Source: a virus
Virus record (IMG/VR): IMGVR_UViG_3300009786_000122
Span: 1 to 20,007 of that record
Length of the DNA stretch: 20,007 nucleotides
Reading direction: 5' to 3' (one strand)
The translations under genes were made by a program, and so were the position numbers. This document shows, in pieces, positions 1 to 20,007 of the stretch. How positions within the stretch are numbered: position 1 is the stretch's first letter; each line of letters begins with the position of its first letter. Under the pieces are notes generated by a model. It saw nothing but the letters and a program-made list of their open reading frames with translations. It searched no databases and was not told the DNA's origin.

Positions 1-678
1 GGCTCGTGACACTTTGTCCTTCATCACCGCTCTTTGCGTTTCTGGGGCCGCCTCTGCCAAGGCTCTGGCTTCTACAACATCATTCCGTAGATCTTCGGGC
101 AATTGGTTCAATGCCTCTTCTGGTGTGAGGCCAACTCCCGCTGCTTCCCTGAAGAATAGATCCGAATCGCTAATGGTGGGCATCGGGAGGCCAGCCTCTT
201 GCCACCCGTAATACGTATCATCGAACGCCTTCCTTCGGGCTTGTAGCTGCTGCGACTGCCAACCTGTTTCCCGTGTGGCAAGTTCCGATGGGGAAAACTT
301 GTAAGAGATTTGTGTCGGATCGTCAAGACTTGGCGTGAGTCTGCCCTCGTTCCAGTCTTCGAGCCCGGAACTCAGTGATTTCAGCTGCGCAGCGTCTTCA
401 CGGGATAGATTAATAGAGCCTGTGGGGCCACCCTCCGCATACGCCAAGTTACTCAGGTATCTATCCCGATCCACTCGTCTGCGATCGAGAATCCGATCGT
501 CTTCTCCGGCTGCCAACCGACTCTCTTGGTTTTGTAAGAACCCGAGTTGCGCCTCCAGGCGGTTCTCAGAGGCATCTTCAAATTTGTCGGCACGCCGCTG
601 TCGAATTCTTCCGGTTACGGCATCCGCAACACTGCCAATTCCCTGCGCTGCGCCACCGACGTAGTCGTACCATGCCAT
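1..678 (-). CDS. Virion-associated protein candidate, C-terminus cut by window edge
   Basis: An open frame runs from an ATG at 678 through 226 codons to base 1 without a stop, so the C-terminus lies outside the window. The start is supported by AAGGA (685-689) six bases upstream. The protein begins MAWYDYVGGAAQGIGS, then continues as a charged, Arg/Glu/Gln/Ala-rich and probably helical chain. No signal peptide, clear membrane segment or catalytic motif was seen, and no family is recognised. Its Gly/Ala-rich start followed by a Gln/Asn/Glu helical stretch resembles the layout of the N-terminus of the 677-residue protein just upstream, so a related internal-virion or tail-associated role is inferred from position and composition only. 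The AT-rich 46-bp gap before it holds no convincing terminator. Confidence 0.8.
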   Translation of the reverse strand, partial: MAWYDYVGGAAQGIGSVADAVTGRIRQRRADKFEDASENRLEAQLGFLQNQESRLAAGEDDRILDRRRVDRDRYLSNLAYAEGGPTGSINLSREDAAQLKSLSSGLEDWNEGRLTPSLDDPTQISYKFSPSELATRETGWQSQQLQARRKAFDDTYYGWQEAGLPMPTISDSDLFFREAAGVGLTPEEALNQLPEDLRNDVVEARALAEAAPETQRAVMKDKVSRA

Positions 679-724: not shown

Positions 725-2758
725 TTACAGCCATCCCATCGAACTCGCTTTCTGGATCATCTCCATTACTTCCTCGTATTTATGCCGATTCGAATACTGC
801 AACATAAATTTACTAAGCTCAGATTGAGACATCTTCTGATATTCGGCAAATCGTGGAAGAATCTTCTGGGTGAATTCTTTCAGAAAAGTTTCTTTACCTA
901 TACGCAGACCTTCTTCGCCTAATCCACGGGACAAATCAAGAGGACCAGTTGTAGCGGGTTGCCCGAGTCGACGGGTTGTCAGATTTCTGGCTGCGGCTAT
1001 CATGGCTGGTGTGAAGTGGAGAAGAGAGGCTCCTGTGACACCAGCTGCCGCTCCAGCGCCTGCTATCACGCCAGCGACCTGAAGGGATTTTCCAATGCGC
1101 GCATTGTCTTCCGGCGTAAATTGCTGAAGTCGGCTGGTTTCCGCTCCCGATGCTTGATCCTGGGCTTTCTGTTGATAAAAGTCGCCTATGTGTCCAAATG
1201 TTCTCGGCACAACCCCCTGCCCGAGTTGCGCGATGTCTGGCCGTGTCATACTGAGCCATTCCTGAGATCCAGGCGGCGAGCCGAAGGCCGGGTTATTGGC
1301 GGGGGCTTGGTCATAGATCCGCTGCTGATTTGGAGGGAGGTCGTAGTTCGCGATAATACGGTTGGGCGTCGCCGGGGGCCGAACAGCCTGTTGCACTGCT
1401 GTTGCGGGGGTCTCTGCCACTACTTCTGCTGCGGGCCCTTGCACTACTGGTGCGGTGGGGGCTTCCCCTCTCCCCACGGCTTGTATTTGTGCGGGGGTGA
1501 AGGCTTGGTATCGTGCGGCTTGCGCGCTAGGGCTAAAAGGCCCGGACGTTATTTGGTTGGGCAAGAACTTCGCGAGGTTGCCCTCCATTGTCCCAGGGGA
1601 GAAGTTTGGGTGAAAAGGTTGTGTGGGATCACCAAAGATTTGCCCGGAGGGTGTAGGCGCCGGAGCGCCCTGGTAGCCTGCGTTCCCAGGCAGGAACTGT
1701 GAGCCTGCTCGCAGCGCACTGCCCACGTCTCCGCTAAATCCCCCAGAGGCAATAGAGGCAAGTGCTCTGGGATTCAGAATGCTCCGCTGAATGGCCGACA
1801 TGGCAGATTCTCCAGCGACTTTTCCTGCGACATTTTTGGCACCCCCGGCAAAGCCCCCCGCTGGGATTCCTCCGAGTATGGCAGACATGATATGATCCCG
1901 TTTCGATCCCCCGGAGGCTGCGCTTCCGAGGACTCCCAAGCCAGCTCCAATCGCGCCTTGCGCAGCGAGGGATAAACCACCCGTAAAGGGAGCTAACGCA
2001 AACGGGGCGGCGATGGAGGCTATTTTGATAGCCTTTCTCCACCAGGGAGTGCCTTTTTGCTCTTCAACCGCCGGGTCGGGGGGAGGGGGTTGTAGCGACA
2101 ACGCCGTCGCGGCATCCATTTGCTGCGCGAGCATCGCCGACATGGATGCTTCGCGTGCCGTGCGAGCCGCCGCACGAGATCGTGCGAACTCCGCGACTTG
2201 CCGATCGGCCTCTGCTGCACCTGCGCCAAGGCCATAGTTACTCATGGCGTTAAACTGTAAATTCGGATCGACATTCGCGAGGGCTTTCCGTCGTTCCCCA
2301 ATAGACGTGGACGTGGCCATGTCTCCATAGGGGGTGAGGTCGAGTCCTGCGAGAGGATTGATTACGCCGCCATACGCCGTGGGTAACGGCGCGTTCGCAT
2401 AGTTTGCGCCCGTGGTTCCCAATAATTTTTGCTGCTGGACAAAGCGTTGCTCTTGCCCCAAGGGCATTGCGCCCAGCAATCCCGTGGCGCGCATATCCTG
2501 GTTCTGCGCAAGATCCCCGGTGAAGTTAAACGAATTCGCCCGCGCACTTGCTTGGCGATTGTAGTCTTGCACCTTCCGGAGATAGAGGGCGTTCTCCTCG
2601 TTCTGCTGTGCTCTCGCGGCATCGCCCTCGCGTTGGGCGGCGCCCCCAAACATACCGCTGACGCCACCAACGAGCTGAGATGCGGCTTTAGTCGCCGCGG
2701 CCCAGTCTTCGCCAGTCCAGTCCGTCGTAAATTCTTTTACTTGACCCTTTATCCCCAT
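725..2758 (-). CDS. Large internal-virion/ejection-type protein candidate with hydrophobic segment
   Basis: This 677-residue protein starts at ATG 2758, four bases after the previous stop, with only a weak AGGGA upstream. The first 220 residues are Gln/Ala/Asn/Arg-rich and probably helical. A Pro-rich linker (about 222-230) is followed by WWRKAIKIASIAAP and a long hydrophobic Gly/Ala stretch (about 239-284) that could enter a membrane. The motif RDHIMSAIL (287-295) recurs in related form in the next three genes upstream. The middle is Pro/Gly/Ala-rich and disordered-looking, a second Gly/Ala-rich hydrophobic patch (about 560-585) follows, and the C-terminal 80 residues are charged and helical. 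No lysozyme, transglycosylase or peptidase signature was found. Large helical proteins with membrane-active segments downstream of the nozzle gene in podoviruses are often ejected with the DNA. That role is inferred here from position, and the family is not recognised. Confidence 0.85.
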   Translation of the reverse strand: MGIKGQVKEFTTDWTGEDWAAATKAASQLVGGVSGMFGGAAQREGDAARAQQNEENALYLRKVQDYNRQASARANSFNFTGDLAQNQDMRATGLLGAMPLGQEQRFVQQQKLLGTTGANYANAPLPTAYGGVINPLAGLDLTPYGDMATSTSIGERRKALANVDPNLQFNAMSNYGLGAGAAEADRQVAEFARSRAAARTAREASMSAMLAQQMDAATALSLQPPPPDPAVEEQKGTPWWRKAIKIASIAAPFALAPFTGGLSLAAQGAIGAGLGVLGSAASGGSKRDHIMSAILGGIPAGGFAGGAKNVAGKVAGESAMSAIQRSILNPRALASIASGGFSGDVGSALRAGSQFLPGNAGYQGAPAPTPSGQIFGDPTQPFHPNFSPGTMEGNLAKFLPNQITSGPFSPSAQAARYQAFTPAQIQAVGRGEAPTAPVVQGPAAEVVAETPATAVQQAVRPPATPNRIIANYDLPPNQQRIYDQAPANNPAFGSPPGSQEWLSMTRPDIAQLGQGVVPRTFGHIGDFYQQKAQDQASGAETSRLQQFTPEDNARIGKSLQVAGVIAGAGAAAGVTGASLLHFTPAMIAAARNLTTRRLGQPATTGPLDLSRGLGEEGLRIGKETFLKEFTQKILPRFAEYQKMSQSELSKFMLQYSNRHKYEEVMEMIQKASSMGWL

Positions 2759-2761
2759 GGT

Positions 2762-3769
2762 TTAATACGTCCCTGCTTGTTGACGAGTTCGATTTAAGAA
2801 TTCCTGATTGATCGTTGCTCGTTGCTTCTCCAGGAATTGATAATATGATAAGTTTTCGTTATGACGTGCTTGTTCGGCGGCTAGATTTTGCGCGTTCCAG
2901 CCTAACGTCCCGGACTGCGTTAAGGAGGCGGCTTGCCGCAAGAAATTTTCGTTCTGTGCGCGTACTTGATTATTGGCACTAAAGATTGCCATCATCCGAC
3001 CTGAGTCGCCTTGGGCAATAGCTTCTTGCATTTGCAACGCGGCAGTGGTGTCAGCACGATTTTGCTGCGCCGCCTGAACCGCAATATCACGTCGCCCCGC
3101 AAGAAGTTGACTATTGAAGTCGTTATTATTATTTTGTAGCCCTTGTCGCGCACGTCCCCCGAGGCCACTCATCCCGCCACGCAACAAATTTTGATCAAGT
3201 TGTGCACCCTGCTGTGCACGTTGGGCGTTTAAGAGTTCCTTCTGCTGCTCAAAGAGCTGGTCCTGCTGAACTTGGCCCATCGTTTCAGGCTTCGCCAAAA
3301 TGGCGTTCATCAACCGATTGCGCTGATCTTCGCCTACACCGGTAAACTGTTCGGCATACTGGGGTTGATAGCTGGAGTAATATGCCGAAGGCCGTTCTGG
3401 CGTCGAGAATTGCGAGCGTTCGGGTGTGGGGTAGCCTGGATAGGCACCGTTAGCAGTCTCTCCGCCACCCTCTCCGCCAGCCTCTCCGTTGCCACCACCG
3501 TCGCCACCATCCCCACCCCCAACTTCAGGAGCGCCACCGGGCGTATTCGTGGCACGTCCTTGTAAGTTTGTTCGGAGATTTCCCCAGTGTCCCAGCTCGC
3601 CGCCCTGGTTATACCAGTCGTCAAGTTCTGCTTGGTCGGCACCACGATTCAGCTGTGTTTGATACTGATTCTGTACCGTGTTATCAAAGAGTGCGCGGTC
3701 GCCAGATTTGCCAAGAGACGCCCAATACCCCTCATCATTTTCCGCGTCTTGAAATCCATCAGTGGGCAT
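2762..3769 (-). CDS. Gln/Asn/Ala-rich virion-associated protein candidate
   Basis: The start is set at ATG 3769 because GGGAG (3778-3782) sits eight bases upstream. The in-frame TTG at 3784 would overlap the previous gene and has no better ribosome site. The resulting 335-residue protein is acidic at the N-terminus. It then has a Gly/Glu/Asp-rich linker (about residues 78-103), a Tyr/Pro-rich patch (about 110-142) and a long Gln/Asn/Ala/Arg-rich, probably coiled helical C-terminal half. RNRLMNAIL (150-158) marks the transition into the helical half and matches a motif in the neighbouring genes. There is no signal peptide or membrane segment, and no family is recognised. The gene order and composition suggest an internal or tail-associated structural protein, which is inference. 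Confidence 0.82.
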   Translation of the reverse strand: MPTDGFQDAENDEGYWASLGKSGDRALFDNTVQNQYQTQLNRGADQAELDDWYNQGGELGHWGNLRTNLQGRATNTPGGAPEVGGGDGGDGGGNGEAGGEGGGETANGAYPGYPTPERSQFSTPERPSAYYSSYQPQYAEQFTGVGEDQRNRLMNAILAKPETMGQVQQDQLFEQQKELLNAQRAQQGAQLDQNLLRGGMSGLGGRARQGLQNNNNDFNSQLLAGRRDIAVQAAQQNRADTTAALQMQEAIAQGDSGRMMAIFSANNQVRAQNENFLRQAASLTQSGTLGWNAQNLAAEQARHNENLSYYQFLEKQRATINQEFLNRTRQQAGTY

Positions 3770-3773
3770 GAAA

Positions 3774-4529
3774 TTATCTCCCAAAGAGCCGACTGGCCCC
3801 GCCTAAGATGGCCGATTGGACCTGATTCCGTGGCTGAATATTCTTTTTCCCGCGCTTCGGCGCTTTCTTTTTTCTCGTGCCTTGTGCGGTGGATGCAGCA
3901 GCGCCCATTGCGGGGCCAACCCAATCATACTGGGGCTGCTGTTGCGGGATGGGCGTCTGATACGCAGCATTCCCAAGGGCTGCTCCCTGAGAGAACGGAG
4001 CAATCGTCCCAGCATTCCCAAGGGCTGCTCCCTGAAGATTTGCAAAAGATGCTTGTCTCTGCTGCTCGGCCTGCCCACGGAGCGCTTCATACTGCGAATA
4101 TTGAGCTTTTATCGCCTTCTTCTGCTCAGGAGTGATTTGCCCGCCGCCTACGGGAGTCTCGTCAACGAGCCCACGGTTTGTGCCGCCCCCAGCTCCCAAA
4201 CCGGAATAAAAAATATACGGATTCGGACCACCATAGATCCCGTCTTCGTTGAGAGGAGGTGATCCGGGCGATGGCAAGTCTTGCCTGGGTCCAGTGTTGG
4301 GGTCGAATGGCCCGCCATCGTAGATAGGACCGTTGAAGAGCGGCGGTGTAGCTTCGTAGGCAAAGTTGGGGTCACCCTGGCCCTTGGCGCGATTCTCCGC
4401 TCGTATGGCGCGTTCGTACATTTCCCGTGCTTGGTCGGTTCTCGACAAATACTGTCCGTAGTTCGGGTCGCCCTGCGGTCGGCCATACGGACCTAATCCG
4501 TCAGTACGTGGGTCGTATCTTTGTGACAT
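3774..4529 (-). CDS. Gly/Pro/Gln-rich virion-associated protein candidate with basic tail
   Basis: The start is ATG 4529, embedded in TAATG with the previous stop and preceded by a perfect AGGAGG nine bases upstream. An in-frame start at 4562 would ignore this site. The 251-residue protein begins MSQRYDPRTDGLG and is rich in Gly, Pro, Asn, Tyr and Gln. A helical Lys/Gln patch lies around residues 125-155. A 15-residue tandem duplication starting QGAALGNA follows (about 157-186), encoded by a 25-bp exact repeat at 45-bp spacing. The C-terminus is strongly basic (RKKKAPKRGKK) and ends with RNQVQSAIL plus nine residues. The KKKAPK block and the AIL motif both recur in the adjacent upstream protein. 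Its function is unknown, and nucleic acid or partner binding by the basic tail is only a possibility. Confidence 0.82.
   Translation of the reverse strand: MSQRYDPRTDGLGPYGRPQGDPNYGQYLSRTDQAREMYERAIRAENRAKGQGDPNFAYEATPPLFNGPIYDGGPFDPNTGPRQDLPSPGSPPLNEDGIYGGPNPYIFYSGLGAGGGTNRGLVDETPVGGGQITPEQKKAIKAQYSQYEALRGQAEQQRQASFANLQGAALGNAGTIAPFSQGAALGNAAYQTPIPQQQPQYDWVGPAMGAAASTAQGTRKKKAPKRGKKNIQPRNQVQSAILGGASRLFGR
3778..3782 (-). promoter_or_regulatory. Ribosome binding site deciding ATG 3769
   Basis: GGGAG on the minus strand lies eight bases before ATG 3769 and overlaps nothing competing. The longer frame would begin at TTG 3784, upstream of this site. This argues for the shorter 335-residue protein. 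Confidence 0.7.
3966..4035. repeat. 25-bp exact direct repeat at 45-bp spacing (two copies)
   Basis: Copies at 3966-3990 and 4011-4035 are identical over 25 bases, starting AGCATTCCCAAGGGC on the plus strand and separated by 20 bases. The spacing is a multiple of three, and the repeat encodes two copies of QGAALGNA in the minus-strand protein. This is an in-frame tandem duplication inside a gene. With only two copies and a coding context, it is not a CRISPR array. Confidence 0.9.
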
Positions 4530-5146
4530 TAGACGTTTCCTCCTAGTTGCTGTTGCATCCACGCAATGGCGGAGGCAGGGTCATTACCACCCGGAGCGCC
4601 CATAGGTCCGGGCATCATCTCCGTCGATGGCATGGGGCCCATGGGGGGCAGGGGTGGTGGTGGTGGTGCCATTCCGGCCATCATCGGATCAGGCGGTAAT
4701 CCCATGGGAGGAGGCCCTGGAGGGGGCCCCATCGGTGGGGGCCCCATCGGCGGTCCAGCCATCATGGGCGGGGGCCCTGGCGGTGGGGGGGCCATCATCG
4801 GTGGACGTGGCGGTCCAGGATCGAGAATGGCATTCTGAATATGGTTATACTGCACCTGCGAGGGGAAATTTTTTGGAGGGGGTGGTGGCGGGGCATTTTT
4901 CGCCGCCTGCCCCATCGGAGAGATGTAGAGTGGGGGAACGCCCATTGCCGACGGACCCTTTGGCGCTTTCTTTTTGGGTTTCCCGGCGCCGCCTGGAGGC
5001 GCTTGTGGCACCGGTTCCTGCCCAGGGGCCACCGGACGTGCAATCATTCCGTATCCGGGTCCACCGGCTGCGTCGGCGGCACGAGACATATTGGGTTGTC
5101 CAAAACCCATTGGGGAGAGATTGTTGGCTTGGAGTCCTGGGGGCAT
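4529..5146 (-). CDS. Proline/methionine/glycine-rich low-complexity protein
   Basis: The frame ends in TAATG with the next gene. I place the start at ATG 5146 (205 residues, GGA seven bases upstream), which overlaps the DUF5675 gene by 103 bp. Other possible starts are TTG 5158, ATG 5089 and ATG 5047, the last forming an ATGA overlap with that gene's stop. The N-terminal repeat of SPMG phrases (LSPMG near the start, ISPMG near residue 75) argues that the upstream part is translated. The protein has a KPKKKAPKG block (about 55-63), YNHIQNAIL (100-108) and then about 70 residues of PP, PPM, PPMG and PPPGPP repeats, closing with a short helical tail. It should be disordered or polyproline-II-like. 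No family is recognised. Position suggests a virion-associated role, by inference. Confidence 0.75.
   Translation of the reverse strand: MPPGLQANNLSPMGFGQPNMSRAADAAGGPGYGMIARPVAPGQEPVPQAPPGGAGKPKKKAPKGPSAMGVPPLYISPMGQAAKNAPPPPPPKNFPSQVQYNHIQNAILDPGPPRPPMMAPPPPGPPPMMAGPPMGPPPMGPPPGPPPMGLPPDPMMAGMAPPPPPLPPMGPMPSTEMMPGPMGAPGGNDPASAIAWMQQQLGGNV
4539..4544 (-). promoter_or_regulatory. Consensus ribosome binding site deciding ATG 4529
   Basis: A perfect AGGAGG on the minus strand lies nine bases before the ATG of the TAATG junction. This is one of the strongest ribosome sites in the window and places the start at 4529 rather than at the in-frame codon at 4562. Confidence 0.8.
4598..4819 (-). repeat. 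Coding low-complexity proline/methionine/glycine repeat
   Basis: The codons of the proline-rich protein form an imperfect short-period repeat, visible on the plus strand as recurring GGGGGCCCCATCGG-type units and GGTGG runs. The encoded units are variants of PPMG, PPPMM and PPPGPP. The pattern is seen directly in the sequence. The plus strand is open through here because the repeat avoids stops in several frames, so overlapping plus-strand frames here are not evidence of genes. Confidence 0.8.
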
Positions 5147-5526
5147 ATTGTAATCCAATGTGGGCCGCGTGCCTCTTCAAGGGCGGCGAGTAAGGGGATA
5201 AACGCGAGACGGGATTGCGAGACCCCGGTTGCTGTGCGTCCGAATCCTGGAAGAATGCACCCACTGGTATCGGCAATGGTGTTGCCGGAGTGGATGCGAA
5301 TGCCCGTAAAATTCGGGACTTTTCGTAAGATGGGTAAGCGTCGTTTGAATCGTGGTGAATGGGTCACTTCCACCAGATACCGCCCATAGGGAATGGCTGT
5401 CTCGTGCTTAATCTTGACAGGTCGCATCGCATCTTCTAGCGTAAAACAATGAAACCGTTCATTGATGTACAGTCGACCAAACGTGCGATTCTGAATCGTT
5501 GGTTCACGTTCCAGTCGCAAGTCCAC
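5044..5526 (-). CDS. DUF5675 family protein in lysis region
   Basis: This 160-residue protein starts at GTG 5526, four bases after the previous stop. The opening DLRLERE...TFGRLYI...FTLED, followed by IPYGRYLVEV and GIRIHSGN...DTSGCILPG, matches what I know of the DUF5675 family, common in phages and prophages. His79, Asp86 and the Ser88-Gly89-Cys90 trio are the conserved-looking polar residues. Their order recalls the His/Ser-Gly-Cys centre of YkuD L,D-transpeptidases, but the spacing is shorter, so enzymatic activity is an inference. The family domain should end near residue 127, and the last 30 residues overlap the start of the proline-rich gene. It follows a holin-like gene, so a role in cell-wall modification or lysis is possible. 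No signal peptide is visible. Confidence 0.85.
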   Translation of the reverse strand: MDLRLEREPTIQNRTFGRLYINERFHCFTLEDAMRPVKIKHETAIPYGRYLVEVTHSPRFKRRLPILRKVPNFTGIRIHSGNTIADTSGCILPGFGRTATGVSQSRLAFIPLLAALEEARGPHWITICPQDSKPTISPQWVLDNPICLVPPTQPVDPDTE

Positions 5527-7463: not shown

Positions 7464-9642
7464 AATAACGATCGCCCAACATGCGTGCCATGATGGCCAA
7501 CTTTTGTACTATTAATTCACGGCCAGGGGTGTAGACGAAAATGACTGGACGCAATGCGGTTCCACTTCGACCAACAGAGAGCCGTTGTTTGAGACTCGCT
7601 GATCCCGTCCATGTCGCCGCATCCCAGTCTGCGGTATCCCACAAGGATTCTCCCAGGACACTATTTGTGACTGGTGTGGAGACATCTTCATCAAATTCTA
7701 ATTGGGTGGACACATAGGCATCGGCAATGCCGAAGGGCGCGCTGAAGTGATAATACAAGCGGTCAAAGCGTTTACGAAGAAAGGGTTGATCGAAGTCCAT
7801 CCATCGCCCATAGAAACGAAAGTCCGGGCTACCAATGTAATAGGTATACGTTGTGCTTAAGACTAACGGGGTGACGGCTGTCGCGAGCGTCAAGGCACTC
7901 GCGGTATTGCTGGTAATGCGCACGCGATCAACAGGAAGATAATCTCCATCTACAATAACCACATAGCGATTCGCTAATCCCGATCCTGTGGTATAAAATC
8001 CCGTTCCAGCAATTTCGGTAATAGACGTAGCCACAGGAATGAATTCTCCCGTCAGCGTCCCTGAGGGCACCCCGTCATTTTTATAGCTGGTACTAAAGTA
8101 GAATAACTGTCCGTAATAGCCGCCCAGATACAAACTTGTCTCCGAGCTTGTATTGACCGCTGTGGCAAACGACGCCGCGTCAATCGTGCTCCAATAGGAC
8201 GCTTCAAACCGTCGTAACGCGTAGTTAAAGACAATCATCCGATCGTTGATGGACGATCCCAGGCTCGATACAGACCAGACAATACGATCAGCCGTGGGGT
8301 CATGCCCCGCATAGATAAAGGCACTTCTTGTGCTATTCAACTCGGTGGTCACGGCTGAGAGGCCGAGAAGCATTTGCCCAACGCGATTGATATCCGTGCC
8401 GTCATAGACGACCGGTCCGACCGCACGGTCCCACCACGCAATGTTTCCCGGCATGCTGACAATGGAATTCCGACTCGCACAGCCAATCGTGAGGTCGATG
8501 GGTTTGAGTGTCCACGTTTGTGGGTCGTTTCCGTAGAGCCCCCACGTGCCCGTCGTGAGGAAGATCATTAGCAACTCATCAGAATACTGATGGAGTCCTA
8601 TGATTTTATCCCCTTCCCCGGTTTCAATGGGCTCAAAATTATTCGTGCCAAAGTTATCTGCTTGGTCTTGTTTTGACCAATAGATATTTCGTCCATCTGC
8701 ACAGATTAAGCGTCGCCCAAATGCCGTCACATGGGTAATCGTGCTTGCCGGAGGATCGTTTTCTGAGGTGGACGGTGCCACCGTTGTTTGTGCGGCAATC
8801 GTGGCGGCACTTAAATCAAGATATGCCGCTGTCGTGGCAATCGGAATGTTCCCATCGGTTACAATATCCGCGCCTGCAACATTTTCAAAGGTCAAGACTT
8901 TATAGAGTTTCGACTGTGTGGTCTGCCGACGAATGAAGATACGCCAATGTGTATATTGCGCCGTCTCTGCTGTACTGGGCGAAATGGTGACACTAATACG
9001 ACGATTGGCCCCGCCCAGGGTGACGGTTTTCAGCGTGGAGGATGAGGATTCTCCTCCAGATGTACTGTTGTAGGAGGTCACCGTCACATCATAGGTTTCG
9101 GCAGGCATCGAGTTTCCGCCAGTAATGGCGGTATTCTCTGCGGTGACCCAACTGGCAATGGGGCTCAACCCCCACGGGACATACGTTTGGTTGACCAGCG
9201 ATCGTCGTTCACTCGCGTCGTTCACCAGGAAGAGGCGATTATCTAAGACGGTCCCATCCACAGGCGATGTGCCTGCGCTAAAACAGAGACTCGCTGGAGC
9301 GGGAAAATTGGTGGGGGGAGCAAACGCCGCGGTGAGGGTATCGTTTGACTGCCGGTAATACAGCTTGCCATCTGCGGTACACAGCGCCACGTAATTGGTG
9401 TAGGCCGATCCGGTATTGTAGGAATAGGGGGCTTGCCAATGAATGGCGGGAGACGAGGTCAGGGCCGTGGTATTAACGGTATTGAGCCCAGGACGCGTGC
9501 CGATCGACGTGCGCCCTAACCCTGATTTGACAAACGAGGTATTGATGCCCTTTGAAAACGCGTTCTCAGGAATCTGATCCCCATCTGTTGACGTAATAAC
9601 GCCTGACGCCCAGTCAACAAATTCTTTATAGCTGTCAGCCAC
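7456..9642 (-). CDS. Tail nozzle/hub-like protein (P22 gp10/T7 gp12 type role)
   Basis: The 728-residue protein starts at GTG 9642, overlapping the adaptor gene by 8 bp. The sequence is beta-rich throughout with no membrane helix. The N-terminal 160 residues contain propeller-like phrases (VALCTADGKLYYRQ, TVLDNRLFLVND). A beta-sandwich-like insertion, YDVTVTSYNSTSGGESS..., lies around 184-250. The stretch 310-420 is the most informative: RRLICADGRNIYWSKQ, EGDKIIGLHQYSDELLMIF and GNIAWWDRAVGPVVYDG follow the pattern of phage DNA-stabilising hub and nozzle proteins that close the short tail. Position directly after the adaptor gene fits this role. It is longer than P22 gp10 and closer to T7 gp12 in size. 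The functional call is by motif pattern and order, not by a recognised exact homologue. Confidence 0.75.
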   Translation of the reverse strand: MADSYKEFVDWASGVITSTDGDQIPENAFSKGINTSFVKSGLGRTSIGTRPGLNTVNTTALTSSPAIHWQAPYSYNTGSAYTNYVALCTADGKLYYRQSNDTLTAAFAPPTNFPAPASLCFSAGTSPVDGTVLDNRLFLVNDASERRSLVNQTYVPWGLSPIASWVTAENTAITGGNSMPAETYDVTVTSYNSTSGGESSSSTLKTVTLGGANRRISVTISPSTAETAQYTHWRIFIRRQTTQSKLYKVLTFENVAGADIVTDGNIPIATTAAYLDLSAATIAAQTTVAPSTSENDPPASTITHVTAFGRRLICADGRNIYWSKQDQADNFGTNNFEPIETGEGDKIIGLHQYSDELLMIFLTTGTWGLYGNDPQTWTLKPIDLTIGCASRNSIVSMPGNIAWWDRAVGPVVYDGTDINRVGQMLLGLSAVTTELNSTRSAFIYAGHDPTADRIVWSVSSLGSSINDRMIVFNYALRRFEASYWSTIDAASFATAVNTSSETSLYLGGYYGQLFYFSTSYKNDGVPSGTLTGEFIPVATSITEIAGTGFYTTGSGLANRYVVIVDGDYLPVDRVRITSNTASALTLATAVTPLVLSTTYTYYIGSPDFRFYGRWMDFDQPFLRKRFDRLYYHFSAPFGIADAYVSTQLEFDEDVSTPVTNSVLGESLWDTADWDAATWTGSASLKQRLSVGRSGTALRPVIFVYTPGRELIVQKLAIMARMLGDRYYA

Positions 9643-10576
9643 GCGGGATAAATCTCGTAAAGGTCGGGCGCCCTCCCAAAGATCGTGCTTGCTGATAGGT
9701 CATCTTGAGGGATTGGTCTAACTTTGATAACCGTGCACGCCAATAGGCTTGTTCATCGTCCGTCGCTCGACTATACCCCTGCATCGCCGTTAATGCTTTG
9801 AGCACCAGGATGTCATCATGCGATTCAGGCAAATCTGGAATATCATTGTCTTTCACCAAGTAACGGGGTTTCCGGTAAAAGCGATACTTGATGGTGCTAC
9901 TCCCCGCTGGCGTACCAATAATTTCCATCATCCTATATTGCCGACCAAATTCGTCGGCATTCAAAGCCAGCAATGTATCAGACCCGGAGGTCACCGTGAC
10001 AAGACGAGCCCAGCTTGCGCCAATCTTTGTAATATCTAATACCACCTCAAACGATGTTGAAGATGTCAGCGTCGTCCACGGCGCACCAGAACTCACCGTT
10101 TCGTTGACGTAATCTCCGCTCCCATCAATACCGGATACGATGATTTGATTACTCGCGGATTCCGTGCCCCCAGTTGTGGCAATCGCCACCACTCCAGTTG
10201 CTGTTGGCTGCTTTTTGAGCTTGGAAATACCTGCCAACATAAATCTGATGGGTTCCGTCGGCGTGGCATTATCCCAATCGGCTCCCGATTCAAGTAATGA
10301 CTTGGCCGGGATCTCTTCGAGATAATCTTCTGTATTGGGGTTGAAAAAGTAGAGGGGCTGGTCAAACTCGGGATGCAACGCATACGCCGATTGGCCAGAG
10401 ACCACCGAGAGGGACTCGGTGCGGGGCCACAACATGAAGTCATAGCGATCTTCATGGAGCAGCTGCTGGTGTTGCTCGTTAATAGAATTTGAGACGAGGT
10501 CTCTGAGTAATCCTGTATCCGAGCCATCCGCCATCCATTGCAGGACCGCGTCTTGGAGTTGCTTGAAGGTCCGCAT
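9635..10576 (-). CDS. Head-to-tail adaptor/connector protein
   Basis: The 313-residue protein starts at ATG 10576, seven bases after the previous stop, with AAGG close upstream. The N-terminus is a helical segment, FKQLQDAVLQWMADG to VSNSINEQHQQLLHEDRYDFM, as in connector proteins that dock under the portal. A beta-rich insertion (about 110-205, Ser/Thr/Gly-rich) follows. The C-terminal part, YRFYRKPRYLVKDNDIPDLP then ESHDDILVLKAL and a long Arg/Gln/Lys helix (231-300), is the pattern seen in many podovirus adaptor (T7 gp11/tail tubular A-like) proteins. Its stop overlaps the nozzle gene start, consistent with co-translation of two interacting tail proteins. The central insertion is larger than I would expect for a minimal adaptor. 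Confidence 0.8.
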   Translation of the reverse strand: MRTFKQLQDAVLQWMADGSDTGLLRDLVSNSINEQHQQLLHEDRYDFMLWPRTESLSVVSGQSAYALHPEFDQPLYFFNPNTEDYLEEIPAKSLLESGADWDNATPTEPIRFMLAGISKLKKQPTATGVVAIATTGGTESASNQIIVSGIDGSGDYVNETVSSGAPWTTLTSSTSFEVVLDITKIGASWARLVTVTSGSDTLLALNADEFGRQYRMMEIIGTPAGSSTIKYRFYRKPRYLVKDNDIPDLPESHDDILVLKALTAMQGYSRATDDEQAYWRARLSKLDQSLKMTYQQARSLGGRPTFTRFIPRG

Positions 10577-12036: not shown

Positions 12037-13275
12037 TTAGCTCCAGACCTCGTTGATACCGAGCAGCGCACCATTCTGGTTCCGCGCCTTGCACATCAGT
12101 TCCTGATAAACAAACGCGGTTGCGCCGTAGGCGTCCACGTCGCCACCACTGATGCGGTAGAAGACCGACCCGTCCTTATCCATAAAGTCGAGTGGCGCCA
12201 TCTGTGCCAAGCTCAGCGAGCTTGGGGTAATCGCAAAGATCGCATTGCGTCGGCACTGCACGTCAGCTACGATCGGCTTCCCGTTGTAGGTCACCGCTTC
12301 CCAGCCACCGTCCAGCTTCATGACGTTGTAGAAGACACGCTCATCCTGGCACAGCTTGACATACGTGTCGCGCATGGCCGGATGCACATGGAACATCTTC
12401 AAATCCGATTCGTCGATGTTCGACTCGGTGATGATTCGACTCACCAACTGCTGAATCAGCGGGAAACTCAAGTCCTGCTTACTCGCATCGCTTCCGAGAA
12501 TGACGGCCTTCCAATCGGGGTAGGTCGCCACCGGCAAGCCGTGCAAGCCCCCAGCCAAGAGGGTTGGGTTCGATGCACTAATGACGGCCTGGAGGCCGGT
12601 CATCTCGTTGCCAAGCGTATCTTCCAGCACCAAGTAATCGCCATCTGCTGAGCCAGAGACAGTCCCTGTCCAGGTGACGGACGTGGTGGCCGTGGAGACC
12701 GCCCCACGCGTAACTACGATGGAATTACCCAAGACTGTCGCGTTATCCGACGCGTCAATGAGATCGCACGTCAGTGCCCCCGTGGGCAGCTGTGTGGTGC
12801 CATTGCCAAGACCGTCATCCACTGGCGCTGGCGTCGCGTTATCGGCGCCGGTCCAGTAGGCCAACGCGCCCGTGCCGTCACCGTTGAGCTGACGGTTGAT
12901 CCCACGCTTGGTATCCGTCATGACATACTTCATTTCGGCTTCCAGCGCCTTCAAGAATGCGCCCTTGTTGGACTTCGTCGCGGCAATCGCCTTGCCGGAG
13001 ACGTTAATTCTCGAATAGAGCTGCTTCACGGGAACGACCGCCCTCACAAAGCCCTGCTGACCGGCAGTCGGCAACGTCGCGCCTTCGGACTTTCCGATCG
13101 CCGCTGCGTTGTTTCGCGTCCGGTGCACCGCGACAACAAAGTTGCCACCTTCGACCGGGGTAATATCTTTCTCAATCGCCTTGAGAAGTGGGGTCGCATT
13201 GTTGAGCATCTCCTGCAACGCGGGTAGGTAGACCTCTTTTAGAATCGGGGTTGCGGCAGTATAATCAAATGCCAT
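12037..13275 (-). CDS. Major capsid protein (HK97-fold type)
   Basis: The 412-residue protein starts at ATG 13275 with GGAG ten bases upstream. The N-arm includes VYLPALQEMLNNATPLLKAI. The probable E-loop (43-98, GNFVVAVHRTRNNAAAIGKS) leads to a long spine helix (about 103-130, GAFLKALEAEMKYVMTDTK) ending NRQLNGDGTG. A beta-rich, Thr/Ser/Gly-rich insertion (about 150-250) follows. The C-terminal A/P-domain part has MFHVHPAMRDTYVKL, VTYNGKPIVADV, PLDFMDKDG and YQELMCKARNQNG, the familiar pattern of HK97-fold coat proteins in podo- and siphophages. It follows the scaffold gene, as expected. No N-terminal protease-like delta domain is present, consistent with a separate scaffold. Confidence 0.9.
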   Translation of the reverse strand: MAFDYTAATPILKEVYLPALQEMLNNATPLLKAIEKDITPVEGGNFVVAVHRTRNNAAAIGKSEGATLPTAGQQGFVRAVVPVKQLYSRINVSGKAIAATKSNKGAFLKALEAEMKYVMTDTKRGINRQLNGDGTGALAYWTGADNATPAPVDDGLGNGTTQLPTGALTCDLIDASDNATVLGNSIVVTRGAVSTATTSVTWTGTVSGSADGDYLVLEDTLGNEMTGLQAVISASNPTLLAGGLHGLPVATYPDWKAVILGSDASKQDLSFPLIQQLVSRIITESNIDESDLKMFHVHPAMRDTYVKLCQDERVFYNVMKLDGGWEAVTYNGKPIVADVQCRRNAIFAITPSSLSLAQMAPLDFMDKDGSVFYRISGGDVDAYGATAFVYQELMCKARNQNGALLGINEVWS

Positions 13276-13312: not shown

Positions 13313-13328
13313 GACAACCTTAGTTGTC
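13313..13328 (-). promoter_or_regulatory. Hairpin carrying the scaffold stop codon in its loop
   Basis: GACAAC and GTTGTC form an exact 6-bp stem around a four-base loop that contains the TAA stop of the scaffold gene. It lies directly upstream of the second hairpin in the 44-bp scaffold-capsid gap. A role in setting the scaffold-to-capsid ratio is possible but unproven. Confidence 0.4.
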
Positions 13329-14324
13329 AAGGTAAGCAGCAGCTCGCTGTTCCAAACTCTTCCAATCAAGCTTGCCATCCTTCCGCATAAAACTTCCGGG
13401 TTTGGTTTGCTCAGATGGGGGAACAGGCGAACCAGATGGTGGTCCCATTTTGGCACGGGCCTTCGCGACCTCTTGCCGTTTGATGTGATCCGTACTTGTA
13501 GCCCGTACCCGATCAGACCATTCCTTCGCCACTGTTTCTGTGTAGTCAATGGCTTGGTCAATAGACTGTGGGTCAAGCTGTGCAACTTGGTATCGAATAG
13601 ATTCTTCTGCGTAGGGAATAACATCCCGCAGAAATTTATAATCATCCTTTTCCAACGTCGCATTAAGTCCAGCCGTAAATCGATGCGCATCAGCCTGTTG
13701 AATCTGTTCATTCTTCAGCTCTTGCCCAGCGTTCTGCAACTGCGACATAAATTGCTGCTGCTGCTGAGTTTGCTGTGTCGAGAGCTGTTGCTGAAACGCG
13801 GCGAGTGATTGCTGTACTTCTCCGAGCGTGGCAATCTCATTTGGATCAGATGGTTTCTCCGATGTCACGTCCTTTGTTGGACGAGCAGCGGTTTGCATTT
13901 GCTCCTGCGCATAGGCAATCATTTCTGCCTGTCGCTGGAGTTCAGCAGCCCGTTGCGTAAACACCTGTTCCGCTTCCTGACGCTGTTGGGACAGCGTTTG
14001 CATACGTCTTGTAAACGCAGCTTCTCGTTGAATCCCGCCCTTGTATTCCGCGTAGGGGACGGTTTCTTCGACGCCATCAATTTTGACACGCACAAGCGCA
14101 TCGTCAGGAATATCTACAACTTGATCATGAGATCCGGTTACAGTCGGTGTGCCTGCAAGTGCCGAATCCGGGAGGTCAGAGGGTGCAGATGTGGCAACAT
14201 CCTGGAGCGGTTCCGCCGTATCCGCTGTCGGATCTGCCATATGTTCCATTGCTTTCTCATGGAGTGAGTTGAAGTCAATGGTTGAGGGTTGCAACGAATC
14301 GGGAGTGCTAATTACATCAGACAT
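13320..14324 (-). CDS. Capsid scaffold (head-assembly) protein
   Basis: I set the start at ATG 14324 (334 residues, MSDVISTPDSLQP). The frame stays open to GTG 14354, but neither start has a clear ribosome site and the upstream ten residues look non-native. The N-terminal 80 residues are acidic and disordered. Then VRVKIDGVEETVPYAEYKGG and FTRRMQTLSQQRQEAEQ (about 78-120) match a phrase common in phage scaffold-type proteins. A long Gln/Glu/Ala coiled-coil region follows (about 105-215), with a poly-Gln patch near 183-191. The C-terminus is basic with a helical end (KLDWKSLEQRAAAYLDN), as scaffold proteins use a basic tail to contact the coat. The position directly upstream of the major capsid gene agrees. 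No protease motif is visible. Confidence 0.85.
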   Translation of the reverse strand: MSDVISTPDSLQPSTIDFNSLHEKAMEHMADPTADTAEPLQDVATSAPSDLPDSALAGTPTVTGSHDQVVDIPDDALVRVKIDGVEETVPYAEYKGGIQREAAFTRRMQTLSQQRQEAEQVFTQRAAELQRQAEMIAYAQEQMQTAARPTKDVTSEKPSDPNEIATLGEVQQSLAAFQQQLSTQQTQQQQQFMSQLQNAGQELKNEQIQQADAHRFTAGLNATLEKDDYKFLRDVIPYAEESIRYQVAQLDPQSIDQAIDYTETVAKEWSDRVRATSTDHIKRQEVAKARAKMGPPSGSPVPPSEQTKPGSFMRKDGKLDWKSLEQRAAAYLDN

Positions 14325-14468
14325 ACAAAAACGCGAGCTAGTGGCGAAGAACACGCCGTGCTAGAAACCCATCCTCTGGCTGCGCGGCCACTAAGGAGGG
14401 ACATCATCGAAAGGTGGGGAAAGTCTGTCAGGATGATGCCACTGACCTGGACTTACGCCGGGGCTCGG
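14325..14468 (-). other. 144-bp non-coding gap upstream of scaffold, possible structured leader
   Basis: This is the longest gap without a convincing gene. It holds a 7-bp inverted repeat, TAGTGGC (14339-14345) and GCCACTA (14387-14393), and a second one, CATCATC (14402-14408) and GATGATG (14432-14438). A TGGC/GCCA hairpin (about 14377-14390) overlaps the first. No U-tract was seen. The gap may separate the portal-side and capsid-side transcription units. Confidence 0.5.
14403..14431 (-). promoter_or_regulatory. Weak sigma70-like promoter candidate before scaffold
   Basis: On the minus strand CTGACA (14426-14431, five of six to the -35 consensus) is followed after 17 bases by GATGAT (14403-14408, four of six to the -10). 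It lies in the one sizeable gap of the window, upstream of the scaffold and capsid genes. A match this weak can arise by chance, and it overlaps an inverted repeat. Confidence 0.25.
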
Positions 14469-15603: not shown

Positions 15604-16232
15604 GCGAGTAGCTCTTTCTCTTTCTCTGCGTGCGGCAGTAGTGCCGCTTGTATATCGACCGCATCGTCATCGAGCGCACGTTGAATGCCCTCTGTGACGT
15701 GCGCTGGTGCGCCGGTCAACACCCAACGACCGTTCTCTAGCGTCAATTTACCGTGGATAGACCCATGGAAAGGCTCCAACGCGGTGCCGGTAATATCCAT
15801 TATGGCCTTCTCCATTGTTGGCCGAACAAATCGGGACGAACTCTGATTTGCGTCGATCTCTAGGCGTGATCGGTCCACTTGAATGTATTGCCGCATCTGC
15901 GCCGATTCGATTCCCGCACTGACGGTATCCCAGCGGTGGAAATGCTGATCGCCAATCGGCCAATGGAATTTGGTCACATCCACGCACACCGCACCCCCGT
16001 TGGGACAGTCATCCCACGCCGCCAAATCCCAGCAATGTTCATTCGTCTCGTATGGCGATCCTTCAGGTGTGATCATGCGCTGCGCGTCTTGTAGCCACGC
16101 ATTTAAGCCAATCATTCGCGCATCACCGACTTGCGCTAGTAGATGTGTCGGCGGTGACGGTAGTCGGCCCCTCCACTCACCAAGCCACTGTCCGTCGTCA
16201 AGTCGAAACCAGCACAAATGCCGCCACGTCAT
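15600..16232 (-). CDS. Protein of unknown function in the portal-scaffold block
   Basis: I place the start at ATG 16232, in a TGATG overlap with the upstream stop and with AGGA nine bases upstream, rather than at the in-frame ATG 16268. The 210-residue protein is Trp/His-rich (MTWRHLCWFRLDDGQWLGEW, FHWPIGDQHFHRWDTVSAG). It appears to have a soluble N-terminal domain, an amphipathic middle and a charged C-terminal helix (ALLPHAEKEKELLA). Cys residues are scattered and form no clear metal site. It differs in composition from the beta-rich neighbours, so it may have an enzymatic or chaperone role. I recognise no family. Confidence 0.75.
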   Translation of the reverse strand: MTWRHLCWFRLDDGQWLGEWRGRLPSPPTHLLAQVGDARMIGLNAWLQDAQRMITPEGSPYETNEHCWDLAAWDDCPNGGAVCVDVTKFHWPIGDQHFHRWDTVSAGIESAQMRQYIQVDRSRLEIDANQSSSRFVRPTMEKAIMDITGTALEPFHGSIHGKLTLENGRWVLTGAPAHVTEGIQRALDDDAVDIQAALLPHAEKEKELLA

Positions 16233-16645
16233 CAGAACAGTTCCTGAATCACCCAGCCAGCCGTGCATGTTCCCAGCGGGTCGTAGAACCGCAGCCGCGT
16301 CATCGTCAACGTCGTCGTGCCGGTGATCGCGATTCTCGCGAGGGTCTGTCCGTCAGGCACATTGGTGTCATTGCCATAGGCGTACCCCAGATACCCCTCC
16401 TTGCTCTGGGTGAGGCTCACCGATGCGATAGTGGCCGTCGCTGTCATATCGGTAGTGCCGTCAACTAACGAGACCGTGCCTCGCTGCGTTGCACTTTCGA
16501 GGACACTGTAGCTACCGGCTGTGAGGCTAAAGCCTGTTTTGTCGCTGACCGCGGCGGTGAAGCCCGTTTTGGTATTTACTTCTACTAAACGATTTGCGAC
16601 GGGCTGTTGCGTCCAAAGTTGGTTCGCACTTATCCCCGACTTCAT
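16232..16645 (-). CDS. Small beta-rich virion protein candidate
   Basis: The 137-residue protein starts at ATG 16645 within an ATGA overlap with the upstream stop. After a short helix (SANQLWTQQPVANRLVEVNT) the chain is Thr/Ser/Gly-rich and beta-forming (VSDKTGFSLTAGSYSVLES, RGTVSLVDGTTDMTATATIA, TTTLTMTRLRFYDP). No membrane helix or signal peptide. The sequence looks like a one-domain decoration or fibre protein. Tight coupling to the next and previous genes suggests a fixed stoichiometric group. No family is recognised. Confidence 0.75.
   Translation of the reverse strand: MKSGISANQLWTQQPVANRLVEVNTKTGFTAAVSDKTGFSLTAGSYSVLESATQRGTVSLVDGTTDMTATATIASVSLTQSKEGYLGYAYGNDTNVPDGQTLARIAITGTTTLTMTRLRFYDPLGTCTAGWVIQELF
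16242..16245 (-). promoter_or_regulatory. Ribosome binding site deciding ATG 16232
   Basis: AGGA on the minus strand, nine bases before the ATG within the TGATG junction, supports the start at 16232 instead of the upstream in-frame ATG 16268, which would overlap the previous gene by 37 bases. Confidence 0.6.
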
Positions 16646-17298: not shown

Positions 17299-17706
17299 TT
17301 AACCCTTATTTTCGGTATACGTAAAGGCGGTGATGCTTACCGCAGACCCCGAGCTAATGGCGACGGAATTCAACACCATATCTGCCGAGGATGTGCCGAC
17401 CGTGCCATCAAACACGACTGATGAGCCATCCGATTTGAGTGTGCGAAACCATGTCGCCGTCCCTGTGGCATCGGCACTTGAGTCTGACGTAATCGCTCCA
17501 GCTGTTGAGACCCCACTTGACGACGATCCAAATGCGGTGGACGCAAATCTCAATTCGGCCAACAGGGTATTCCCGGACAGGGCAGTATCTGCCGTGGAGG
17601 GCTGTGTTCCCGTGTAAATACGAATGTAGCCTGTGTTTAACAGTGCGCACACGGCGTCGCCACCCGCGACGACGGCTGCGTTAGATCGCTTTGGATTTAG
17701 AGCCAT
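17299..17706 (-). CDS. Small virion-structural candidate following portal
   Basis: The 135-residue protein starts at ATG 17706, sharing TAATG with the portal stop. AAGGAG lies ten bases upstream, near the end of the portal gene. The N-terminus (PKRSNAAVVAGGDAVCALLN) is a short helix leading to TGYIRIYTGTQP, and the remaining 100 residues are Ser/Thr/Gly/Ala-rich beta strands ending VSITAFTYTENKG. I recognise this SNAA...DAVxALLNxGxxRIYxGTQP opening as a recurrent phage hypothetical found beside structural genes, but its function is not known to me. Translational coupling with the portal suggests a portal-proximal or head-surface role. Confidence 0.8.
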   Translation of the reverse strand: MALNPKRSNAAVVAGGDAVCALLNTGYIRIYTGTQPSTADTALSGNTLLAELRFASTAFGSSSSGVSTAGAITSDSSADATGTATWFRTLKSDGSSVVFDGTVGTSSADMVLNSVAISSGSAVSITAFTYTENKG

Positions 17707-19922
17707 TAGGATGTTTCTCCTTCAGAAGACAGCCCGACCGGTTGTGGTTCAATACCTTCAATCAGGCCCGTGTCAGGATTTCGTTTCACGGTGTAGCGCA
17801 CCGGGATTCGTAGATCGTTATTAATAACCGTTGTGGCAGGTTGCGTCGACAACGGCGGAATTTCTAGGTCGGTTGGCGGTTCCAGTTCAAGAGAAGGCTC
17901 AGGTAAAATCGTGGACAGCATTTCAATAATCGCCGGTTCTAGCCCAAATTCACGACTCATCATTTTGGCGTCATCCGGGTTGATATAGCACAGATGCACT
18001 AAGGTATGAAAGACATTCATGGCCCACTGGGTATGTTCCCATGATGCTGTTTCCGTGGACTTGAACAAGTCAATGTGCGCATCCCAATGGAGTTGATGGT
18101 TTTCCCACGGTTGGGGTTTCGGCAAGCGCCCATTTTCCAACATCGTAATGTTTTCGAGCTGGGCTTGTTCCTGATCTCGCTGATCACGCTCAATTTCGAA
18201 TTCACTAAAGGACATCTGGAGCATGTCCTGCACACGCTTCTGTGTTTTGGGATCTGGGGGCGGGCCAAAGAGTCCTTCAGTAAACATCTGACGAATTTGG
18301 TCCATCCTGGCGGTGCGCAGCTGCGGCATCATCGTATCGGGTTCGATACTGATGTCGGCATGCTCGTCAATCGTGGCCCGAGAAAATTCATAAATTTCCG
18401 GGATGTTTGACCTGCCTGCGATGGAGACCATACGTGGTACGTCGTAGAACTCCTTCATCAAGTGCCGCACTTTGACATAGGCTTCCTCCAGCGCCATCGC
18501 ATTCCGTTGGATCGTGGGACCATGGACTTGATCGGCGGCTTCCTGCAACAAGGAGGTCTGGAATCCTGAGGATGCACCACCTGCACCGCCCATCGCGGAT
18601 GGGTAGATCAAGGTGATATCGTCCATCTCCTTCCGAATCATTTGGAGGATATTCCACGCATCCCCAATGACGGACGCGGGCTGCAAGAACATTGGCATAG
18701 GGATTCCCGGAATCCAATTCACGTTCAAGCGTTCTCCCGCCTCGGAGGTATACGCATCGTCTGAGAGGTTCAACTGCTTGGGCACCACGAGCTTCGGGAA
18801 GAAGTGCATGGCGAGATTCTCGCCCATCTTCGAGCGATATTCGTTGTATTCCGACTGCAAGCCAATCATGCGTTCCACAAACGCATCAGGCCAGTATTGC
18901 CCAGGGGCCGCGTCATCGCAGAGTTCCACAAAGGGATACGGATTCCGTGTCAGGTGCGTAAAGTTTCCAGGAATCGATTCCTGCTTGTGCAGCAGTCTAT
19001 GTCCAGCGACCACGATGTAACAACCATGCTCATATTTGGCATTGGGGGCAATAAATCGCTCAATCATCAGCGCATGCGTCGGCAACGTGTCGTCGGTATC
19101 AACCGCACTCCGACTTGCCATCCCCTGTTGCCGTGTGCCCAGATCGGCAATCTGACGCTGGTAGAAAAAGAGATCGATGTCTCCTGATTCTGCGGGGATC
19201 GCTCCCTTCTCTAGGCCATACTTCTTTTCAATCTCGTCACAGGGCTGTAAGCGCACTCGCAAGATTTCTGGCTGATTCGCCATCATATCAATGCCGGGAT
19301 CTGCTGGCAGTATTTCAAATGCCGAACAAAACTCGACTTCGACTTCGCCCGTGATGGGTTCAAGCTTTGAATCGAGCTTGGTTGGAGCATGTGAGATGGC
19401 ATCTTCATCCCAGCGTATCGACCAGAACGCTTTTCCGGTCAGGGGCACCCATTGCATGGCTTGCACCCACTTCGAGCGCAGCGCCGCCTTCCGGGTGTAA
19501 TACTGAAGAGCCTTTTGCGAGGCATTCGCATTGAAGATGTCTTCTCGGTCTGTTGTCGCAGGGACCACCGTGGGATTCGGTGGAATCCTGGTGTATTTGG
19601 CGACACGCGCCACATACTTCGGCTTAATATGGTTAATTCTGAACCGTTTCCGGTGGGCAGGCTCGCGTTTGACCTCTAATCGGCTCAGATCGGCGTTCCA
19701 TCGCACATCGGGGAATCCCCGCAGCGCAGACGCGTTCAAATACCACTGCACCTCATACGGACGGCGCAACTGCCGTCGTGTATCATACGCATTGATGGTT
19801 TCGGTGACAATCGTGGCTTCTTTTAATGCTTTCTTATCAGAATCCGCTTTTGTCGTTACGGGTTCTCCGTCTGTGACGGGCCCTACCAGCTCAATCTTCT
19901 TTGGCGGTGTCTCGTCAGGCAT
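17706..19922 (-). CDS. Portal protein
   Basis: The start is placed at ATG 19922, with AAGGG seven bases upstream and an 8-bp overlap with the previous frame. The GTG at 19940 would add six odd residues. The 738-residue product fits large P22/T7-type podovirus portals, which form the dodecameric ring at the DNA entry vertex. Supporting stretches are RRPYEVQWYLNAS and the Arg/Lys-rich KRFRINHIKPKYVARVAKY, then NPYPFVEL...QYWPDAFVERMIGLQSEYN (327-360). Next come EMDDITLIYPSAMGGAGGASSG, the long helical stem region and a Gln/Glu-rich C-terminal helix (ERDQRDQEQAQLE). A Pro-rich acidic tail may be flexible. The proline/acid N-terminus is probably disordered. Its position at the head of the structural operon agrees. 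Confidence 0.9.
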   Translation of the reverse strand: MPDETPPKKIELVGPVTDGEPVTTKADSDKKALKEATIVTETINAYDTRRQLRRPYEVQWYLNASALRGFPDVRWNADLSRLEVKREPAHRKRFRINHIKPKYVARVAKYTRIPPNPTVVPATTDREDIFNANASQKALQYYTRKAALRSKWVQAMQWVPLTGKAFWSIRWDEDAISHAPTKLDSKLEPITGEVEVEFCSAFEILPADPGIDMMANQPEILRVRLQPCDEIEKKYGLEKGAIPAESGDIDLFFYQRQIADLGTRQQGMASRSAVDTDDTLPTHALMIERFIAPNAKYEHGCYIVVAGHRLLHKQESIPGNFTHLTRNPYPFVELCDDAAPGQYWPDAFVERMIGLQSEYNEYRSKMGENLAMHFFPKLVVPKQLNLSDDAYTSEAGERLNVNWIPGIPMPMFLQPASVIGDAWNILQMIRKEMDDITLIYPSAMGGAGGASSGFQTSLLQEAADQVHGPTIQRNAMALEEAYVKVRHLMKEFYDVPRMVSIAGRSNIPEIYEFSRATIDEHADISIEPDTMMPQLRTARMDQIRQMFTEGLFGPPPDPKTQKRVQDMLQMSFSEFEIERDQRDQEQAQLENITMLENGRLPKPQPWENHQLHWDAHIDLFKSTETASWEHTQWAMNVFHTLVHLCYINPDDAKMMSREFGLEPAIIEMLSTILPEPSLELEPPTDLEIPPLSTQPATTVINNDLRIPVRYTVKRNPDTGLIEGIEPQPVGLSSEGETS

Positions 19923-20007
19923 TTGGCAACCCTTCCCCACGTAACATGTGCTCCGCTATGGAGGGAAGCATGACATCCCACTCTTCCGCTTCCCGCGCTT
20001 CTTTCAA
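19915..20007 (-). CDS. C-terminal end of an upstream gene (terminase position)
   Basis: A frame entering from the right edge gives 30 residues, including AREAEEWDVMLPSIAEHMLRG and ending GLPNA, then TGA at 19915-19917. It overlaps the portal start by 8 bp, the same style of junction as elsewhere in the window. The helical, acidic composition looks like a real protein end. The gene directly before a portal is usually the large terminase subunit, but these 30 residues carry no diagnostic motif, so the identity is inferred from order only. Another frame is also open over this short stretch, which lowers confidence. Confidence 0.5.
   Translation of the reverse strand: MKEAREAEEWDVMLPSIAEHMLRGEGLPNA

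Follow-up and report, generated by a model that had tools for sequence, protein, structure and literature searches.

Background

The question of how ejection proteins are selected for the podovirus head is unsettled. In phage P22 the scaffold has been proposed as the docking site of the ejection proteins, and the accessible part of that source names no signal (PMC12005531). In phage SU10 five ejection proteins are described, one of which has transglycosylase activity (PMC9509320, accessible part). In phage T4, the internal proteins IPI-III carry identical or similar propeptides that act as capsid-targeting sequences (PMC9026906, accessible part). The word motif occurs only in a reference title in the accessible part of a 2022 review of ejection proteins (PMC8954989), and a literature search covering titles and the starts of abstracts, with few subscription journals, yielded no description that we recognised of a shared motif such as the one reported here. 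We analyse a complete virus record of 20,007 bases (IMGVR_UViG_3300009786_000122, or G000; hereafter the window, meaning this whole stretch of DNA), in which four consecutive genes, D, C, B and A, share a nine-residue motif ending in Ala-Ile-Leu (the AIL motif). A longer record of 51,118 bases (G001) matches the window at 99.7%.

A shared motif in four consecutive genes

The genes and the motif copies are located as follows:

4529-5158, minus strand: gene D, 209 residues, proline-rich, with an NNxxPxGxGQ element near the N-terminus and the AIL motif
4823-4849, minus strand: AIL motif of D, YNHIQNAIL, residues 104-112 of 209
3774-4562, minus strand: gene C, 262 residues, overlapping D and B
3804-3830, minus strand: AIL motif of C, RNQVQSAIL, residues 245-253 of 262, 9 residues before the C-terminus
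2762-3784, minus strand: gene B, 340 residues, Gln/Ala-rich, with homologues in six relatives
3296-3322, minus strand: AIL motif of B, RNRLMNAIL, residues 155-163 of 340
725-2758, minus strand: gene A, 677 residues, Ala/Gly-rich
1874-1900, minus strand: AIL motif of A as first assigned, RDHIMSAIL, residues 287-295 of 677
1775-1801, minus strand: second copy in A, MSAIQRSIL (SAIQRSILNPRAL), missed by the sequence-only reading that first described the motif

That reading had reported one copy in each of the four genes, and its four nonamers are indeed the sole matches to its pattern in the six frames of the window. Their codons differ, as it had said, and alanine is GCC in all four. It had not seen the motif in the visible part of the gene at the left edge, E; this agrees with our scoring, in which E and its neighbour F, counted as decoys, fall outside the four top decoys listed for G001.

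The best common nonamer of the four proteins, with a score of 150, is exactly the reported set. When words with fewer than six residue types were excluded, this score was reached by none of 100 global and none of 100 local shuffles, a check on chance that the observation passed; without the filter at least 5 of 100 local (30-residue) shuffles reached it, and none of 100 global ones did. When the 48 quartets of consecutive G001 genes were evaluated with 12 shuffles each, the A-D set came first by z (5.8). The window statistics alone would leave doubt, and it is the relatives that settle the reality of the motif. Judged from these sequence comparisons, it is a real shared motif of the gene block of this clade, one copy of which, in A, had been misassigned. 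Its fullest form is [R/Y]-[N/D]-x-[L/I/V/T]-[Q/M]-x-A-[I/V]-[L/M], with Pro or Gly among the next three residues.

Recurrence in related phage records

Relatives were found by scans with alignments of the capsid protein and of B, and by searches within records. Six records hold B and part of the block, with capsid protein identities of 90% (G003), 82% (G004), 67% (G007), 62% (G008), 86% (G011) and 80% (G023). A scan of these six with the pattern of that first reading, allowing up to two mismatches, matched 6 of 7,196 block words versus 1 of 147,841 other words, bearing out the expectation that matches concentrate in this block; with up to three mismatches there were 16 block words versus 38 other words. 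The six block matches at two mismatches lie in D and B of G003, B of G004, and B, C and D of G011. Four of them are homologues of window genes with the motif at the matching place, and those in C and D of G011 are more telling: D of G011 has the NNxxPxGxGQ element in common with window D, yet carries the motif at its C-terminus.

With a profile trained on the other genomes, 17 of 25 block genes score above every decoy open reading frame (ORF) of their own genome; among these 17, the site in A of G001 is RDHIMSAIL, which is not conserved (see below), and the sites in B of G007 and A of G008 are not the aligned ones. When both the own genome and the own family were left out of the profile, 15 of 25 block genes reached p<0.05 by shuffling, 12 of the 15 at the aligned site. 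Training sites for the broader profiles were picked by eye, so that only held-out scores count as evidence, and the combined Fisher values of this stricter test are not true probabilities because genes of related genomes are not independent. A simpler profile, built from the four window nonamers alone, ranked the B, D and A sites of G003 first to third. Its top site was a block gene in G011 (D) and in G023 (A), with one block site each, two other sites of A ranked 4th and 7th in G008, and the sites of the fused D/C gene and of B ranked 6th and 8th in G007. For G004, whose tiling had lost block genes, no D-A site was among the top ten.

The position of the motif varies. Copies lie in the middle of the protein, or 2-9 residues from the C-terminus in C of G001, D and D2 of G011 and D of G023, and C of G004 has an extra copy near its N-terminus (residues 4-12). 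Pro or Gly follows within three residues in 23 of 23 listed sites, which were picked by eye. G011 has copies in five genes in a row (D, D2, C, B and A), that of A being weak. In L091, a relative found later, the motif persists in D (AGYMRRAIL), in C (YQRTQAAIL) and in B (RNRVLQAVI); the C and B of this record are 78 and 80% identical to their G023 counterparts.

Motif-bearing genes D, C, B and A

The D homologue of G003 is 58% identical and its motif reads YNRIQSAIL; between G001 and G003 the motif of D keeps 7 of 9 residues, against 14 of 30 upstream and 18 of 30 downstream. D also carries a second recognisable element, which is kept in D or in the fused D/C genes of relatives:

5096-5125, minus strand: NNxxPxGxGQ element of D, near the N-terminus

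In G003, D and B are adjacent and no gene occupies the C position. The motif of window C has a shuffling p of 0.001 with its own genome and family left out. The C-family genes of G004, G011 and G023 show YxxTQxAI after a conserved domain, and window C had no match to that family in the block-protein comparison (E up to 1). In B, the motif marks where the conserved core starts on the N-terminal side. G001 and G003 agree there in 7 of 9 motif residues, in 12 of 30 residues upstream and in 22 of 30 downstream, so that motif and downstream core are more conserved than the upstream linker. If the listed starts are right, D and C overlap by 34 bases (4529-4562) and C and B by 11 bases (3774-3784), as in tightly coupled genes.

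Single-chain models were computed for B and for C of G011, with a mean predicted local distance difference test (pLDDT) of 48-49. At this low confidence, B is predicted to be largely helical, and two of the three modelled copies, that of B and that at residues 204-212 of G011 C, fall in short predicted helices. Searches of solved structures with profiles of B, C and A gave nothing convincing.

In A, the copy first assigned turned out not to be conserved: opposite RDHIMSAIL, the five other A genes have a generic glycine-rich stretch, with 0 of 9 residues kept in G003. It nevertheless scores well in the window by both held-out profile tests. At its place, A of G004 has a weak SGGLKGAIL, equalled by 10 decoy ORFs. 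The site at 1775-1801, instead, has counterparts in G003, G011 and G023 and is thus present in 4 of 6 A genes; of the two copies in A, it alone has counterparts in relatives.

Some further observations concern A. Its homologue in G003 (L041, 12206-13315) has 369 residues, and the similarity to A continues across an in-frame TAG. A of G011 has a sub-threshold P22_gp7 match (16.2 bits, cut-off 28). Scanning with the A family brought up no further record, and single-protein searches with C, A and the nozzle-type protein (see below) found only near-identical records and one remote 23-residue match. A protein of L006 (G002) has in common with A only a 23-residue stretch around EQKGTPWW; judging by eye, we take its end to be like that of an S74-type chaperone.

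A second shared module

A helical module of about 50 residues is common to D2, C and B of G011 (L075), where the copies are 50-60% identical (E 5e-10 to 4e-14). A hidden Markov model built from these three and C of G023 ranks its four training proteins first, followed by B of G003 (E 9e-5), B of G001 (0.012), B of G023 (0.39), D of G023 (0.72) and then decoys; only B of G003 is significant. The corresponding stretch of the window is:

3560-3670, minus strand: stretch of B resembling the module of about 50 residues (weak, E 0.012), with a sub-threshold DUF4214 match

Where both are present, the order is module, linker, AIL motif. The motif segments of D from G001 and G003 align with C of G011 at 52 and 57% identity over 21 residues, but with E values of 0.48 and 0.11. 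The block is thus modular, and common ancestry may account for some of the motif sharing.

Genomic context and distribution

The other genes that enter the argument are:

1-678, minus strand: gene E, cut by the window edge; complete in G001, 291 residues
7456-9642, minus strand: nozzle-type tail protein, upstream of the block (phrog_511, phrog_3287, virion structural)
9635-10576, minus strand: adaptor (Pfam SU10_adaptor), with FKQLQDAVL (10541-10567) at its N-terminus
12037-13275, minus strand: major capsid protein, which served to find relatives
13320-14354, minus strand: scaffold-like protein (phrog_3927), candidate motif partner
17706-19940, minus strand: P22-type portal protein, candidate motif partner

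Judged by Pfam and PHROG scans, the window looks like the portion of a short-tailed-type phage that encodes head and tail, with a P22-type portal, a scaffold-like protein, a major capsid protein, a SU10-type adaptor and a nozzle-type gene; the name nozzle comes from position and from comparison with SU10. The gene order is D-C-B-A-E-F, with D to E all on the minus strand and a few small genes between D and the nozzle-type gene. Gene F, next after E in G001, encodes 1360 residues. Its C-terminal end contains a transglycosylase domain (Pfam SLT, 73 bits) and there also matches PHROG families of lytic tail proteins and internal virion proteins. For D-A, neither Pfam nor PHROG gave a match at E 0.001. 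The position of the block together with the transglycosylase protein suggests an ejection cluster, and we infer that A-D, lying between the nozzle-type gene and that protein, are probably ejection (internal virion) proteins.

The motif bearers are an uncultivated clade of short-tailed-type phages. Among GenBank phage records there was no match for the whole window (near mode) or for the nozzle-type protein, TerL, A, G011 C and G011 B, the proteins queried from the block being these three. Only distant relatives of the major capsid protein and the portal occur there (13 and 12 records), the majority from phages of Arthrobacter, Microbacterium and Cellulosimicrobium. F has 712 matching records, and among the matches listed almost all fall on the transglycosylase end. 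Of such loci, the four that continue beyond the tail genes (L018-L021) contained no word of 12.5 bits or more; there was one in L017, a locus ending at the capsid gene. Two observations concern the capsid gene. In G008 (L045, 2803-4594) the major capsid gene is split by a stretch of about 0.56 kb that contains an ORF (3906-4439) and has the look of an inserted intron or homing gene. The capsid protein on L071, a 3.7-kb contig of a metagenome-assembled genome labelled Proteobacteria bacterium, is 85% identical, which hints weakly at the host group.

Possible docking and alternative explanations

The common motif, its concentration in the block, its recurrence at different positions and the conservation pattern of B were all computed. 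Building on them, we tentatively favour, at slightly less than an even chance, the explanation that a short amphipathic helix docks co-packaged internal proteins to a common partner. Each bearer would be held through its AIL helix to one partner in the immature head, which could be the scaffold, the portal barrel or a core ejection protein, and the set would thereby be packaged and ejected together. Scaffold and portal are candidates by analogy with the T4 and P22 precedents. Location at C-termini, in linkers or at domain borders, the amphipathic pattern visible by inspection and the low-confidence helices would suit a docking peptide. The docking or packaging helix first suggested from the sequence fits the recurrence in the same block at varied positions; the copy proposed in A is not the conserved one. 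A more far-reaching version, that the motif is a transferable podovirus cargo tag, a helix of 9-12 residues, mid-protein or C-terminal, that addresses any bearer to the ejection machinery, we regard as rather doubtful; if it were true, moving the tag would let a phage exchange injected proteins or acquire further ones. A short sequence that recurs across most genes of an ejection cluster would provide an address tag open to testing, could help to annotate ejection genes that match no family model, and might serve to load foreign proteins into phage heads.

Two likenesses in other genes should be noted. The N-terminus of the adaptor is similar to the motif, reading FKQLQDAVL in the window and in G023 and YKELQDAVL in G011, and is the second-best decoy in G011 and G023; as one decoy or another has to take second place, we treat it as no more than a lead. 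Immediately upstream of the capsid gene, the ORF in scaffold position contains QSQIQQAVA at 14.8 bits (L054, 4329-5438; L058, 1938-3086); the ORF at that position in G011 is the top G011 decoy, which may be mere Gln/Ala-rich composition.

Several results speak against docking by a motif common to the set. The better-scoring of the two copies in window A is the unconserved one, and 10 of 25 block genes failed the strict leave-out test at p<0.05, including both fused D/C genes (D and A of G004, DC and B of G007, DC and B of G008, A of G011, and D, B and A of G023). The best de novo common nonamer is a different one in G011, G023 and G004, and an unrelated word on the opposite strand of the L026 capsid gene scores 18.2 bits. 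A protein of a different phage record (L089, 6428-7402) has the C-family domain, 67% identical over 129 residues, without the AIL motif; E and F, which would be expected to be packaged too, are without the motif among the top decoys of G001; and a second copy in C of G011 (residues 66-74) is predicted as coil.

One further gene set of G001, composed of small ORFs whose words are Arg/His-rich, comes to z 5.7, and z by itself is therefore no proof. This result, together with the unfiltered local shuffles that reach the observed score and the unconserved copy in A, is what could be said for a chance likeness among low-complexity, Ala/Gln-rich proteins; given that none of the 200 filtered shuffles reached the score and that the motif is enriched in held-out genomes, we consider chance very improbable. 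The main rival is shared descent, in which small modules were duplicated and shuffled and the AIL helix is an inherited module with a local structural role and no common partner. It agrees with the module of G011 D2, C and B, which extends to B of G003 with weaker matches beyond, with the constant order of module, linker and motif, and with the alignment of the D motif segments with G011 C; A, however, bears the motif without a module match, and D and C of the window also lack one. We judge this explanation possible, at somewhat under one chance in three, and a docking role and shared descent are compatible.

Alternatively, the AIL helices of different proteins might bind each other, in a mixed helical bundle holding the pre-ejection core. 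The amphipathic pattern and the helical prediction for B would fit such self-assembly as well, but with models of such low pLDDT we think it unlikely. The idea, also raised at the outset, of a proteolytic site cut on head maturation has gained little support. A common short sequence in co-assembled proteins would be compatible with it, and one small protein of the window (16232-16645) resembles a PmbA/TldD metallopeptidase domain below threshold (18.5 bits, cut-off 20.9). Cleavage at the four copies lying 2-9 residues from the C-terminus, on the other hand, would take off only a few residues, and the scanned head genes showed no prohead protease family, several of them matching no family at all and not every small gene having been scanned; we give cleavage very little credence.

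Comparison with known systems

In its N-terminal helical stretch B weakly resembles DUF4214 (PF13946), but window B scores 17.5 bits against a cut-off of 23.2, and nothing in the G011 and G023 modules matches this family. Likewise, A-D of the window match none of the ejection families in Pfam or PHROG (gp7, gp20 and gp16 of P22; gp14-16 of T7). The arrangement of the genes is nearer to known systems: as in the ejection clusters of P22, T7 and SU10, they are consecutive genes after the tail genes with one transglycosylase-bearing protein (for SU10, accessible part of PMC9509320), and both the position after the tail genes and the transglycosylase-bearing protein are found here together. T4 differs in that its propeptides are N-terminal and are removed by the gp21 protease, while all four window copies and the second copy of A are internal or near the C-terminus, the extra copy of G004 C being the one close to an N-terminus. 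The capsid-targeting sequences of IPI-III (PMC9026906, accessible part) are nevertheless alike in being a short sequence common to different co-packaged internal proteins, co-packaging being, for A-D, what we presume.

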